Shown one piece after another: positions 45,458 through 53,614 of a DNA stretch of 64,000 bases. This DNA comes from Runella sp. MFBS21 (GTDB lineage: Bacteria; Bacteroidota; Bacteroidia; Cytophagales; Spirosomataceae): assembly GCF_029433105.1 (NCBI RefSeq), contig NZ_JARNTW010000007.1, forward strand, positions 186,001-250,000, written 5' to 3'. Position 1 is the first letter of the stretch; each line of letters starts with the position of its first letter. The position numbers and the translations under genes were made by a program. The notes below the pieces were generated by a model. The model made no database searches and was not told where the DNA came from. It was given only the letters and a program-made list of their open reading frames with translations.

Positions 45458-45604
45458 TCTGCTCCGTGGTCTTTGGGACAAAGACCACGGAGCAGAATTT
45501 GTTTTCTTGATGTTCGTTTACCATGTTAATCATTCTTAAACTTATACTCCAAAACTTTTTTGGGTGGTATTTTTTAGGGCTGTGGAGACACAGACCACGG
45601 GGCA
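45458..45604. mobile_element. Non-autonomous RAYT/REP derivative 1 (~147 bp)
   Basis: A perfect 18-bp-arm hairpin (45458-45496, core GGTCTTTG GGA CAAAGACC) is joined to a copy of the first ~10 codons and the upstream region of the intact RAYT gene (TTTCTTGATGTTCGTTTACC near 45503), and ends in the right REP hairpin at 45578-45597. The rest of the transposase is missing. It is an internally deleted, MITE-like copy. Confidence 0.8.
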
Positions 45605-45613
45605 TAGAAAATT

Positions 45614-45808
45614 TTACTTATTTAATTGAAAAATTATGTTTGTTAAATTTTTACGAAAAACCCACCTTAAATTAAAGTTTTTATCCTCATTCAATTCATC
45701 AAGTACACCTTTTAATATTTCTTTTTCTTTACAAAAAGGTACTTCTTCTAGAAAACTTTCAATGTTTTTTTGTGAAGCAATAATTCCAATGATATTTTTT
45801 AAAAAATA
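45614..45808 (-). pseudogene. Orphan C-terminal gene fragment adjoining the RAYT element
   Basis: A minus-strand frame encodes about 64 charged, protein-like residues (FLKNIIGIIASQKNIESFLE ... RWVFRKNLTNIIFQLNK) and ends in a stop at 45614. Its upstream side runs straight into the left REP of the RAYT element, and no start codon belongs to it. It looks like the tail of a gene whose head was lost or displaced when the element arrived. No continuation is found on the other side of the element. Confidence 0.45.
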
Positions 45809-45809
45809 T

Positions 45810-46497
45810 CTGCTCCGTGGTCTGTGTCCCACAGACCTATTTGCAGTAGCTGATTTTAAAACCGATTCGCATAATGTGTCAAAAATCCAAATTCGTCTTT
45901 TTGGCTTTGATAAAATTTTGCTGATGACCATCTGTAATTTTCAGGACAATCTGCTAAACTCCATCGTTCATGTAGGGGATTTCGGTGAATATAGTCTATT
46001 TTCTGTTCTACCTTTTGCTTTGAGTCCATAAGTATTGCTAACGGATCTCGTTGCCAAATACGATATTCTCGTTCGGAGTCATCAACCTTAAAAAATGGTA
46101 ATACTGCAGCATGATGATGTTTTAAATCTTTTAAAATCATATGACTAGTGTATTTATTGAAACTTGCATGAGGCAATTCTTTACCATTGGGTTCTTTCAA
46201 TTCCCAAATCACGTGCAAGTGATTGGGCATAATCACGTATGCATACACTACAATTTGACCTCTGCCTACTAATTCTTTCCAAGAAGAAAGAATCAATTCT
46301 TTGTATTTGTCTTGTTTTAGCAAATGCTTCCAATCTTTAATGGTATCCGTCCAAAAATAAACTTCATCAAAGTTCATTCTTGAGTTTCGGAATTTGCTTT
46401 CTTGATGTTCGTTTACCATGTTAATAATTCTTAAACTTGTACTCCAAAACTTTTTTGAGTTGCATTTTTTAGGTCTGTGGAGACACAGACCACGGGG
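45810..46497. mobile_element. Intact RAYT element flanked by inverted REP hairpins
   Basis: The left REP is at 45810-45846 (CTGCTCCGTGG, then stem GGTCTGTG TCC CACAGACC). The transposase gene follows, read leftwards, and the right REP is at 46472-46497 (GGTCTGTG GAGA CACAGACC, CACGGGG). The two REPs are inverted with respect to each other. This is the arrangement expected for a REP-associated tyrosine transposase and its cognate repeats. Confidence 0.85.
45856..46419 (-). CDS. REP-associated tyrosine transposase (Y1 HUH family)
   Basis: The protein is 187 residues, full length for the class. It contains the HUH metal motif in AYVIMPNHLHVIW (His67, His69) and the nucleophile Tyr143 in EQKIDYIHRNPLHERW, followed by NYRWSSAKFY. 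RAYTs cut and rejoin single-stranded DNA at REP hairpins and are related to IS200/IS605 transposases. REP hairpins lie on both sides, and partial copies of this gene's two ends occur within 2.2 kb. The reading frame is uninterrupted, so the enzyme may be active. Confidence 0.9.
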   Translation of the reverse strand: MVNEHQESKFRNSRMNFDEVYFWTDTIKDWKHLLKQDKYKELILSSWKELVGRGQIVVYAYVIMPNHLHVIWELKEPNGKELPHASFNKYTSHMILKDLKHHHAAVLPFFKVDDSEREYRIWQRDPLAILMDSKQKVEQKIDYIHRNPLHERWSLADCPENYRWSSAKFYQSQKDEFGFLTHYANRF

Positions 46498-46560
46498 TGG
46501 GGGGTGGGGTGTTCAAAAGTGTATCAGTTGCAATAATTCAACTATTATTCTTCATCTGAG

Positions 46561-46998
46561 TCAAAATACAGAGTCAAAATCTTTTCTTAAATATAAATAA
46601 ATAAATCCTATGATATTAGTAGAAAAAAACCAACTAATTTTTATATTATTTTCATAAATAATTATTTCATAAAAAGATTTTGAATTCTTTAATTCGATGT
46701 ATTGATTAAAAAAAAGATAAAAAAACAAAAAATTAATTGAAAATAAATGAATTATAACTAAGAATACTCTTTTTTTTATTATATTATTAAATATAAACAG
46801 AAAAAATAATAAACAAATGGAATAAGATATTATAGCATATAATGGAAAGAAATAAGCAGAAATCTGATTATATATACTAATGTTTTCATTTATATTTAGA
46901 AGGAAATGTATTAGCTGCCACAATAACCACACCGCGAATAATACAGGAATAAAAATAATCGCCAGTTCATTACCCATTTTTTTCATATTTATTGCCAT
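46561..46998 (-). CDS. Hypothetical membrane protein, very AT-rich gene
   Basis: The 145-residue protein has four predicted membrane helices (LAIIFIPVLFAVWLLWQLIHFLL, FFPLYAIISYSICLLFFLFIF, VFLVIIHLFSINFLFFYLFF, ISWFFSTNIIGFIYLYL). The family is not recognised. The gene is much richer in A and T than the housekeeping genes around, which suggests transfer from elsewhere. It lies between the RAYT element and truncated element copies. It could be an orphan immunity or accessory membrane protein; that is a guess from context. Confidence 0.55.
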   Translation of the reverse strand: MAINMKKMGNELAIIFIPVLFAVWLLWQLIHFLLNINENISIYNQISAYFFPLYAIISYSICLLFFLFIFNNIIKKRVFLVIIHLFSINFLFFYLFFNQYIELKNSKSFYEIIIYENNIKISWFFSTNIIGFIYLYLRKDFDSVF

Positions 46999-47050
46999 TT
47001 AAAAGTTGCTTCGTACTTGATTTTAATGAATTCTGCTGGTTTATCATCAC

Positions 47051-47264
47051 CATGGTCTGTGTCCCACAGACCTATTTGCAGTAGCTGATTTTAAAACGGA
47101 TTCTGCTCTGCTCCTGCTCCCTGCTCTGCTCTGCTCCTGCTCTCCTGCTCCGTGGTCTGTGTCCCACAGACCTATTTACAGTAGCTGATTTTAAAACCGA
47201 TTTGCATCATGTGTCAAAAATCTAAATTCGTCTTTTTTACTTTGATAAAGTTTTGCGGATGACC
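47051..47264. mobile_element. Two truncated RAYT left ends in tandem
   Basis: A first left REP (47051-47080, GGTCTGTG TCC CACAGACC) keeps about 25 bp of the transposase 3' region. After a CTGCTC-rich stretch, a second left REP (47150-47177) is followed by about 85 bp that match the 3' end of the intact RAYT gene with scattered changes up to GATGACC at 47264. Both lack the rest of the element and cannot encode a transposase. Confidence 0.8.
47103..47151. repeat. CTGCTC-rich microsatellite
   Basis: Irregular repeats of CTGCTC and TCCTGCTC fill about 49 bp just before a left REP. The REP's own flank is CTGCTCCGTGG, so the tract looks like an expansion of that flank by slippage. Confidence 0.75.
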
Positions 47265-47275
47265 AAGGTGTAGGG

Positions 47276-47968
47276 CTAAAACTCAATTTTCTCAATAGGT
47301 ACTTTGGCTTTATGCAAGTATTTAAGAATATGCTTTAAGGCAGACATCCCTGCATAGCCTGTATCTACATGAATTTCACAACGGTTAGCGTCTAGTTTTT
47401 CGGCAGTGCCAACATAATGAATTGGGTGGCGTTTTTTACCTTTTTCAAAAAGGTCGTTCCAGCCAACAAAAGCATCATCAATTATTTGTATTATTTGATT
47501 AAAATACTCCTCAGGGGTTGTGATTTCAAACATGGCATCTACGCCATCCCATTTCCACATTTCTACCCTAAACGAATAACCTTCTATCAGTGTAGGTTTT
47601 GGCTTTGACTTGAATCGTTCTCGAATTCGCTCTACAAATTCATCCAGTATTTCAATCCAAAATTGAATATCTTTCTCCTCTACTTCCTCATGGGGATAAA
47701 GCGGTAATTCACCATTTTTGTATTTCCAATAAAAGGTAACGGGTATATAAACGCTGTGAAAATTACCTGCCAAACCAACTCTTTCAATCCACATAATCAC
47801 TTGGCCTTTATCTATTTTAATTTTAACTTCGGAACAAGTTACCATATTTATGGTAACATATTCAATGAAAGGGTTTATCTGCACTAACTTTTGGGCAAGA
47901 AAAGCACTACTGAGTTTCTCAAAACTTTTTGATATTTCAAATTTACTTGTTAGAGTTCTTGTTTTCAT
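47276..47968 (-). CDS. Hypothetical protein, unknown family
   Basis: The 230-residue soluble protein has no signal peptide or membrane helix. Visible parts are a beta-rich N-half (INPFIEYVTINMVTCSEVKIKIDKGQVIMWIERVG), a charged helix (EEKDIQFWIEILDEFVERIRERFKSKPKP) and a C-half with FEITTPEEYFNQIIQIIDDAFVGWNDLFEKGKKRHPIHYVG. I do not recognise the family. It lies between truncated RAYT copies and a candidate immunity gene, so it may be a second orphan immunity protein of a decayed toxin locus; there is no direct proof. Confidence 0.6.
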   Translation of the reverse strand: MKTRTLTSKFEISKSFEKLSSAFLAQKLVQINPFIEYVTINMVTCSEVKIKIDKGQVIMWIERVGLAGNFHSVYIPVTFYWKYKNGELPLYPHEEVEEKDIQFWIEILDEFVERIRERFKSKPKPTLIEGYSFRVEMWKWDGVDAMFEITTPEEYFNQIIQIIDDAFVGWNDLFEKGKKRHPIHYVGTAEKLDANRCEIHVDTGYAGMSALKHILKYLHKAKVPIEKIEF

Positions 47969-48011
47969 CTAATTATAGTAGTTATCGTTGCTCTTTATTT
48001 GATAATTGTAC

Positions 48012-48156
48012 GCCGTGGTCTGTGTCCCAAAGACCTATTTGCAGAATTTGCTTTCTTGATGTTCGTTTACCATGTTAATAATTCTTAAACATTAAACTTG
48101 TACTCCAAAACTTTTTTGGGTTGTATTTTTTAGGGCTGTGGAGACACAGCCCATGG
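48012..48156. mobile_element. Non-autonomous RAYT/REP derivative 2 (~145 bp)
   Basis: It has the same structure as derivative 1: a left REP (GGTCTGTG TCC CAAAGACC, one mismatch), then TATTTGCAGAATTTGCTTTC, i.e. the first codons of the RAYT gene and its upstream region, then the right REP at 48133-48152 (GGGCTGTG GAGA CACAGCCC, perfectly paired). It carries an extra 7-bp duplication (ATTAAAC) relative to derivative 1. Confidence 0.8.
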
Positions 48157-48183
48157 GACAGTAAGACGAGTGGTGATAAAAAT

Positions 48184-48912
48184 TTATTGATTTAAAAATG
48201 TAATGGTACGCGGGCTAATGTCTTCAAACTTCCAACCCTCGGTAAGCCCTGCCGCCTCCAACGCTTCTTTGAGCGGCTCGCTCACTACTTTGAATAATTC
48301 GTCACAAATGAAATAATCGTGGTATTTATCCAAAACAAAATCGTGAATATCTAATACAGAACCCTTATCAAAAAATTTTATCCTTGTCTTTAAGTAATCA
48401 TCTTCATTATGAATGCCAAGTTCGGTGGCTGATTGTATAATACCACTTTTCCTATCAGCATAAGTACATTTTTCAAAAGTTATTTTGGTTTCTTCGCCTA
48501 ACTGAAAAACATAGTAATCTAATTTTTCGCCTTTATACATCAGTTTAGCAGGGTAAAACTTATGCCGAGGGAGATTGAAAGCAGCGATAGTTTCTTTGAA
48601 CTGTTCTGATACTAAAAAGCAAGAACTTGTTGTGTAATGATTGACAACAAACTTATAAATATGGAGTTTTATCCAATCGAATTTCTTTTTTCGACTGCCA
48701 TACAGTTCCTTCAACACAAAATAATCAAAAACAGGTACATCGTCAATAAGAGATCTATTATTGATGGATTTTTCGAGGGGCTGCTTAAAAAAATTCTTCG
48801 TATCACCGCCATCAGGGATGAACTCAGCCCCTTGCATTTCGGGGGATAAATAGGCAGAAGGATAAATTTTTTGCCCAGGTCTTATTTCAATTTCTAATTG
48901 ATAAAATTTCAT
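48184..48912 (-). CDS. Candidate immunity protein (Imm11/Imm43-like)
   Basis: The 242-residue soluble protein ends with DYFICDELFKVVSEPLKEALEAAGLTEGWKFEDISPRTITFLN, which resembles the C-terminal signature of the Imm11 (DUF1629) and Imm43 immunity families of polymorphic toxin systems (a 'lexSEpLKeALEaAGLtG'-type stretch). The ATG at 48912 overlaps the TGA stop of the upstream toxin-like remnant (ATGA), the coupled arrangement expected for toxin and immunity genes. The TTG two codons before is less likely. If the toxin is indeed broken, this would be an orphan immunity gene. The family call is from memory of the motif. Confidence 0.55.
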   Translation of the reverse strand: MKFYQLEIEIRPGQKIYPSAYLSPEMQGAEFIPDGGDTKNFFKQPLEKSINNRSLIDDVPVFDYFVLKELYGSRKKKFDWIKLHIYKFVVNHYTTSSCFLVSEQFKETIAAFNLPRHKFYPAKLMYKGEKLDYYVFQLGEETKITFEKCTYADRKSGIIQSATELGIHNEDDYLKTRIKFFDKGSVLDIHDFVLDKYHDYFICDELFKVVSEPLKEALEAAGLTEGWKFEDISPRTITFLNQ

Positions 48913-49079
48913 TTGCAATTGATAGTTAATGAATTGAGAGGATTACCATTTACGCCAGTGGCAGGTGTACCTGTTGCACAAACGCCTTCTACCTGTTTTT
49001 TAAGGCAACTAATATACTTCTTTATGCTTTTGATAGCGTCAATTTTATCTTGCGGACTCGATAAAGGCGAACCTAATAC
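48909..49079 (-). pseudogene. Beheaded C-terminal reading frame, possible toxin remnant
   Basis: A minus-strand frame of 56 residues (VLGSPLSSPQDKIDAIKSIK ... NGNPLNSLTINCK) ends in a TGA that overlaps the ATG of the candidate immunity gene. It contains helix-forming and Cys-containing segments and no start codon. Upstream the frame runs into a perfect palindrome at 49081-49109 and soon meets a stop. It looks like the last piece of a larger protein, plausibly a polymorphic toxin, truncated by the repeat. Confidence 0.5.
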
Positions 49080-53000: not shown

Positions 53001-53610
53001 GACTTTCCAAGTTTCGAATTCGTAGTAGACAAACTTGGAAAGTCTCTGATTTGCCCGACTTTCCAAGGTTTCGAATTCGTAGTAGACAACCTTGGAAAGT
53101 CTCTGATTTGCCCGACTTTCCAAGGTTTTGAATTCGCAGTAGCCAAACTTGGAAAGTCTCCGACCTTGTCCGACTTTCCAAGTTTCGAATTCGCAGTAGA
53201 CAACCTTGGGAAGTCTCCACCTCGACTGACTTTCCAAGTTTTGAATTCGCACTAACCAAACTTGGGAAGTCTCCACCCTTGTCCGACTTTCCAAGGTTTT
53301 GAATTCGTAGTAAGCTAACTTGGAAAGTCTCCGACCTTGTCCGACTTTCCAAGTTTTGAATTCGCAATAACCAACCTTGGAAAGTCTCCACCCTGGCCGA
53401 CTTTCCAAGGTTTGAATTCGCAGTAGCCAAACTTGGGAAGTCTCTGACTTGCTTGACTTTCCAAGTTTCGAATTCGCAGTAGACAAACTGGGGAAGTCTC
53501 TGATTTGCCCGACTTTCCAAGTTTTGAATTCGCAGTAGCCAAACTTGGGAAGTCTCTGATTTGCTTGACTTTCCAAGTTTCGAATTCGCAGTAGACAAAC
53601 TTGGAAAGTC
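53001..53610. repeat. Tandem array of eleven ~57-bp hairpin units
   Basis: Eleven units start at 53001, 53057, 53114, 53172, 53228, 53285, 53343, 53399, 53455, 53511 and 53567. Each has arm GACTTTCCAAG(T/G)TT, a conserved central GAATTCG(C/T)A element, the complementary arm AAACTTGGAAAGTC, and a 12-13-nt spacer such as TCTGATTTGCCC. Period is 56-58 bp, so reading frame is not kept; all three minus frames are open for long stretches. The array lies between two minus-strand genes, 4 bp from the SRPBCC stop codon. Confidence 0.95.
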
Positions 53611-53614
53611 TAAA

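Follow-up and report, generated by a model that had tools for sequence, protein, structure and literature searches.

The window analysed here, a 64,000-nt stretch of the Runella sp. MFBS21 genome (G000), encodes on its minus strand a Y1 (HUH) transposase-like protein of 187 aa (45856-46419). BLAST and folding place inverted REP hairpins on both sides of the gene, and left REP, gene and right REP together make up an intact element, E (45810-46497, minus strand). The left REP (45810-45846) has an 8-bp stem, a 3-nt loop and an outer CTGC/GCAG foot, and the right REP (about 46471-46497) pairs over 8 bp around a 4-nt loop. The initial annotation had described an intact element between inverted REPs, two derivatives of about 147 bp and two left ends, and all of these were recovered.

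The 187-aa protein matches the NCBIfam family REP_Tyr_transpos (NF047646) with 70.6 bits, under the curated cut-off of 80, and no Pfam family at E≤1e-3. A profile from 25 relatives matches the TnpArep structure (PDB 4er8, E 5e-7), which the single sequence alone does not match. His67-Leu-His69 and Tyr143, which we take to be the catalytic tyrosine, are invariant across the 25 aligned relatives. Judged by these sequence features, the protein is a RAYT. Its motifs NHLH, WQ, YIHxNP and SSA were compared by eye with a published table that gives NH[LIV]H, WQ, YIH[QN]NP and SS for subclass 2.6 (PMC6006769), from which they differ in an R where the table has Q or N. By this comparison by eye, motifs and Bacteroidetes host fit a subclass 2.6 RAYT. 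The closest relative found (78%) is from Runella aurantiaca and is the same gene as in genome G001.

A gene remnant (45605-45809, minus strand; 3' part with its stop at 45614), recognised by reading-frame inspection only and of no family found, is cut off by the left end of E. A hydrophobic-looking protein of 145 aa (46561-46998, minus strand), also of no family found, is encoded by a gene whose 3' end and the right REP of E are 64 bp apart. A further protein, of 230 aa (47276-47968, minus strand), has no Pfam or NCBIfam family, and its homologue in G003 lies close to homologues of toxin-locus genes. An Imm11-like orphan immunity gene (48184-48918, minus strand) scores 20.6 bits against a cut-off of 22.1, and its homologues in G012:C17 (G012 being a second Runella species) and G006 adjoin proteins with an AHH nuclease domain near the C-terminus.

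Derivative A (45458-45604, plus strand) consists of a left REP (45459-45495) joined to the RAYT 5' part, followed by a right REP (about 45577-45602). Derivative C (about 48012-48158, plus strand) has its junction, GCAG/AATTTG, at 48044/48045 and its right REP at 48133-48157. As proposed in the initial annotation, these units are internal-deletion derivatives that retain about 10 RAYT codons and the upstream region; the deletion runs from the left hairpin's outer GCAG foot to a point in RAYT codon 10. The whole-genome search that had been called for found two further copies, B (C67:278196-278340, minus strand) and D (C67:276471-276621, minus strand), both on the window's own contig, although copies are few overall. 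The same junction occurs in five derivatives over two genomes (A, B, C, D and one at G012:C31), and a 108-nt unit is repeated in the window at 94% and 69% identity. Because this unit recurs and the five derivatives have one junction, chance repetition is ruled out.

The common junction claimed for the two window copies holds for all derivatives, but the left end of A differs from those of the other copies, since the CAG before AATTTG is there the end of its own palindrome. The left REP of A has become a perfect palindrome of 37 nt whose stem measures 17 bp (-20.4 kcal/mol, compared with -9.1 for the parent), a change best explained by template switching inside the hairpin, with a return at the common GCAG. 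Both arms are altered in the right REP of C, which nevertheless folds into a hairpin (-10.1 kcal/mol), so that pairing has been kept in this copy. The right REP of A is changed in one arm only (-6.9 kcal/mol), and the left hairpin of C is weakened to -3.9 kcal/mol, with 17 of 200 shuffles folding as well.

Two left-end fragments on the plus strand lack a right REP: one (47042-47103) contains the left REP and about 30 bp (92% over 62 nt), and the other (47145-47265) the left REP and the RAYT 3' end (93% over 121 nt). BLAST and a left-end sequence model built from 13 sequences identified a further type, in which some 100-120 bp from the 3' end of the RAYT gene adjoin the left REP. At least three more arrangements of the right part were recognised by eye, some with an extra REP tip, inverted or direct. 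Elements with this type of left end are located in G000 at 78.6 kb of C72, at 654.8-659.9 kb of C12 (four, C12a-C12d among them) and at 139.8 kb of C71, and those of G012 on C54, C16, C40, C12 and C20 (two). Weak model matches in G000 (C2 and C13, E 0.02-0.03) and G012 (C12:191075 and C3, E 0.01-0.02) were dropped. The total in G000 is 13 elements of all types in five regions of a 7.88-Mb genome, which rules out wide genomic spread. A model search of 13 Runella genomes returned clear members from G000 and G012 only, plus one RAYT element in G001; the derivatives were found in G000 and G012 only. G012 has no intact RAYT of the G000 family, only two 25-residue fragments. Plasmid sequences gave no match, nor did viral contigs searched with the exact junction pattern.

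With both ends common to an autonomous element, no gene and dispersed copies, the derivatives have MITE-type features. Like REPINs and BIMEs, they are non-autonomous units with two inverted REPs in a genome that contains a RAYT, but they differ from those units as described in the available parts of PMC3116915 and PMC2817692 in being about 147 bp or longer, in keeping RAYT coding ends and in amounting to 13 elements, compared with the usual >100 REP copies. They are thus not the short, high-copy inverted REP pairs that define REPINs. These same sources propose RAYT-like elements as the origin of REP pairs.

All five element regions of G000 carry genes of toxin/immunity type, two of the five by sub-threshold Pfam matches only. 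Matches above the Pfam cut-off are Imm11 in region C12, two SUKH, a barstar and a PT-HINT in region C71, and an AHH nuclease with Imm11 in region C72; under it are the Imm11-like gene of the window and an Endonuclea_NS_2 piece at the C67 end. Relatives lend support to both of these regions, the window through the AHH-linked homologues of its Imm11-like gene noted above and the C67 end through a 1087-aa protein that resembles the toxin-type proteins of G012:C17 and G006. At E≤1e-3, a toxin/immunity family was assigned to 9 of the 27 array ORFs (Imm11, 3; SMI1_KNR4, 2; Barstar, AHH, PT-HINT and Endonuclea_NS_2). Three of the eight PF07791 and PF09346 matches genome-wide lie within 3 kb of elements, a span that makes up 0.48% of the genome (binomial P 6e-6, or about 5e-4 when the two SUKH genes of C71 are counted as one locus); the remaining five lie elsewhere, without elements.

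An immunity-gene setting as a general trait of RAYTs was not borne out. None of 297 ORFs surrounding RAYTs of other genera (25 of 52 loci) and none of 224 ORFs around 24 matches to other Runella RAYTs resembled the 27 array proteins, whereas in the G012 arrays such a resemblance was seen for 11 of 74 ORFs. The link to immunity genes is therefore a feature of the G000/G012 lineage and not of RAYTs at large. A phmmer comparison of 60 background ORFs with the array proteins gave one weak match (E 1e-4); the Pfam tally of the same 60 ORFs, with 25 of 113 families listed, is of no use as a negative control.

Tandem, co-oriented immunity genes without toxins, the hallmark of polyimmunity loci, are best developed at C12 and C71 and present in part in the window, where a single gene is Imm11-like and two others have no family assignment. 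The loci described by Zhang et al. (2012, PMC3482391) are similarly tandem, co-oriented and variable between related strains; however, in the available text neighbouring XerC/D are named as possible agents, whereas each gene here has a RAYT-derived repeat.

Comparison of G000 with G012 revealed four gene blocks that lie between two elements (one of them via a remnant) in one species and are absent from the other, which retains one element or remnant. The first is the 2.4 kb between A and C in the window, absent in G012:C31. On its left the single element at G012:C31 is flanked as A is, and on its right as C is, so that A and C are most simply derived from one ancestral site and, as brackets of a 2.4-kb block, need not represent two transpositions. 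The movement of both copies after one deletion event, as read in the initial annotation, is thus not supported. The second block spans about 1.0 kb from C12a to C12b, contains Imm11 and is absent in G012:C40, where a right-end remnant and the flank meet at a 7-bp match and not element to element. The third (2.9 kb, C12c to C12d) is also absent in G012:C40, which has one element with the left flank of C12c and the right flank of C12d. The fourth, 1.7 kb with a SUKH gene, lies between a right-end remnant and an element in G012:C12; G000:C72 lacks it and contains a single truncated element.

These comparisons also bear on the age of the derivatives, which had been read as a direct snapshot of recent activity driven by the intact enzyme. 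Under such a recent burst, deletion of the window's own RAYT copy would have given rise to the derivatives, which its action then transposed. All four G000 copies do have one junction, and a 7-nt stretch present in C, D and the G001 element is missing from A, B and E. However, the same junction is found in G012, which is without an intact RAYT of the same family, so the deletion predates the split between the two species or was passed between them. Further, A and C trace to one site, the 7-nt stretch is bounded by TTAAAC repeats, so that slippage could account for its loss or gain, and none of the copies had a clean empty counterpart among the loci compared between G000 and G012. By sequence comparison, the deletion is not a fresh event of the window, the claim that the intact enzyme drove the derivatives is not supported, and a recent burst appears very unlikely.

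At the third and fourth joints, the switch from the sequence of one parent to that of the other falls within the single element; at the window joint the internal sites are mixed, and clear left/right hybrids are thus two of three aligned joints. In the comparisons C71/G012:C20 and C67 end/G012:C16, element ends coincide with the breakpoints or contain them, and the two-for-one pattern is absent; some breakpoints fall at outer element edges (the left edge at G012:C16 and the right edge of copy B). The Imm11-like gene of the window is itself a mosaic, with about 490 bp from the right-REP edge of C matching the toxin-linked G012:C17 copy at 98% (by bins of 100 columns, four of five reach 97-100%; the first has 87 of 89). 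Beyond this stretch the match to G012:C17 falls to 87%, and that to the positional partner G012:C31 stays at 93%. The window site has no counterpart in 11 other Runella genomes, which leaves gain versus loss at this site unpolarised. The LytS gene beside C12 has relatives in other Runella that are only 55-61% identical.

The elements have an almost fixed orientation relative to genes. In 20 of 21 elements and remnants from G000 and G012, the right-REP side meets the 3' end of an ORF, within 64 bp or overlapping in 16 and at 110-172 bp in four; the sole exception is at G012:C54. The left-REP side meets a 5' end in 17 of 21. An array thus runs from the 3' end of a gene through a right REP and a left REP to where the next gene starts. 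These counts are based on 22 entries, 21 with an ORF on the right-REP side, with element ends set by hand and ORFs of 60 aa or more called mechanically. Two entries are right-end remnants found by eye, the right-REP side of the two left-end fragments of the window was assigned by orientation, and entries that correspond between G000 and G012 are not independent. Because one element of an array may be derived from another, orientation was also counted by separate loci, of which six of seven agree (P 0.06).

Taken together, we consider it probable that RAYT-derived repeats serve as recombination joints of polyimmunity arrays in the two Runella species. A RAYT acting in trans probably first spread the derivatives, leaving an element behind nearly every array gene in one fixed orientation, so that each pair of elements in an array would form a direct repeat. 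Because these direct repeats are about 100-150 bp long, recombination between neighbouring elements could delete or insert the gene block between them and leave a single element, most likely by general recombination or slippage between repeats. The altered content of immunity genes would then matter to the cell. Several observations fit this model less well: the direction of change at the window is not polarised, its joint is mixed at internal sites, the Imm11 block of C12 was lost through a 7-bp match between flank and element, two loci have no two-for-one pattern, agreement in orientation by locus is six of seven, two of the five regions depend on Pfam matches under the curated cut-off, and RAYTs of other genera and other Runella RAYTs have no such neighbourhood.

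Alternatively, the elements could be bystanders that, like REPs generally, insert 3' of genes, survive mainly in dispensable islands and supply only occasional homology, with immunity genes turning over by ordinary exchange. REPs near stop codons are known in E. coli (PMC12306157, available text), the immunity arrays of Vibrio are described in the accessible part of PMC5361080 as recombining without special sites, and several breakpoints here are microhomologous or one-sided. Elements of four deletion types in five regions, all at toxin/immunity-type loci and in one orientation, together with the hybrid joints inside elements at two sites, argue against a bystander role, which we regard as possible but unlikely.

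Fixed orientation of gene to element also invites comparison with integron cassette arrays, in which a palindromic site stands behind each gene and all have one orientation. The RAYT could act as a cassette recombinase that works on single-stranded DNA and cuts at REP hairpins in a pair of neighbouring elements; the left REP of one copy and the right REP of another would then carry a gene block off in circular form. Its catalytic residues appear intact, hairpins are retained (including the two-arm change in the right REP of C), and the breakpoints at outer element edges noted above would suit such cutting. The readable hybrid joints, however, switch inside elements and not at the REP foot, the G012 arrays differ although G012 lacks an intact RAYT of the same family, and RAYTs are described, in the available text of PMC6006769, as vertically kept single genes. 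This function is therefore highly improbable. The Runella arrays share with integrons the orientation of gene and palindromic site, but their joints lie inside the repeat, no integron integrase was noticed on reading the array ORF lists, and they are not members of that class. Were the RAYT a cassette recombinase, immunity genes would be exchanged between arrays as single strands, a role so far known for integrons, by an enzyme unrelated to theirs.

The preferred model, in which RAYT-derived repeats act as joints, combines parts that are individually familiar. Subclass 2.6 RAYTs (TnpA-REP; Bertels group 5) with odd flanking hairpins and hairpin copies elsewhere are already known from Bacteroidetes and resemble the gene described here in motifs, flanking hairpins and dispersed copies; the available part of that report (PMC6006769) does not mention deletion derivatives with RAYT coding ends or a link to immunity genes. 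The T6SS immunity-gene arrays of Vibrio are likewise mosaic and change by recombination, but this is reported without specific sites in the accessible text of PMC5361080. Among the matches listed in searches of the open literature, none had RAYT or REP elements in immunity arrays. What appears to be new is the probable use of RAYT-derived repeats as joints of immunity arrays; the RAYT subclass, REP pairs and polyimmunity loci themselves are known.

The RAYT-derived units, with about 10 codons at one end, are intermediate between complete RAYT elements and REP pairs. If the joints are RAYT-derived repeats, the role of RAYTs and REPs in their hosts and the way in which polyimmunity arrays gain and lose genes meet as questions at one testable locus, in a genus, Runella, that is not known to harm people. 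The leftover repeats and the turnover of gene blocks between the two Runella species suggest a route by which collections of immunity genes may be reshuffled.

Adjoining the left-end fragments in the window is a small tract of CTGCTC-type repeats (47102-47151), the unit of which is identical to the tip of the left REP. A number of deletion junctions, and of the points at which recombination switches, are grouped close to the left-end region that ends in ACTTTGATAAAGTTTTGCTGATGA, in the Runella sp. MFBS21 genome (G000:C12 and C71), in the second Runella (G012:C40) and at other sites. The left-end stretch with this ending includes the inverted repeat ACTTT-GAT-AAAGT.

Elsewhere in the window, approximately 11 units of 56 bp form a tandem array (53001-53611), in which each unit carries the inverted arms GACTTTCCAAGTTT and AAACTTGGAAAGTC; in some units both arms are altered, with pairing kept. 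The array in the second Runella (G012:C31:22279-22552) is shorter. Runella aurantiaca has two tandem units of ~192 bp (G001:C1:494241-494531; loci L029 and L166), in each of which the same CCGTGGTCTGTG hairpin occurs as a pair; both units are far from the RAYT of that genome.

Two pieces in another genome, G003, look like RAYTs of another clade (L164, G003:C9:60707-60976; L162, G003:C27:69142-69486), and neither has a Pfam match. They adjoin homologues of the 230-aa gene of the window and homologues of the Imm11-like genes.

In Pedobacter, the RAYT is flanked by apparently the same two genes at seven loci (L067, L070, L071, L074, and L076-L078), and this apparent constancy of its neighbors fits vertical descent of the RAYT at one place.
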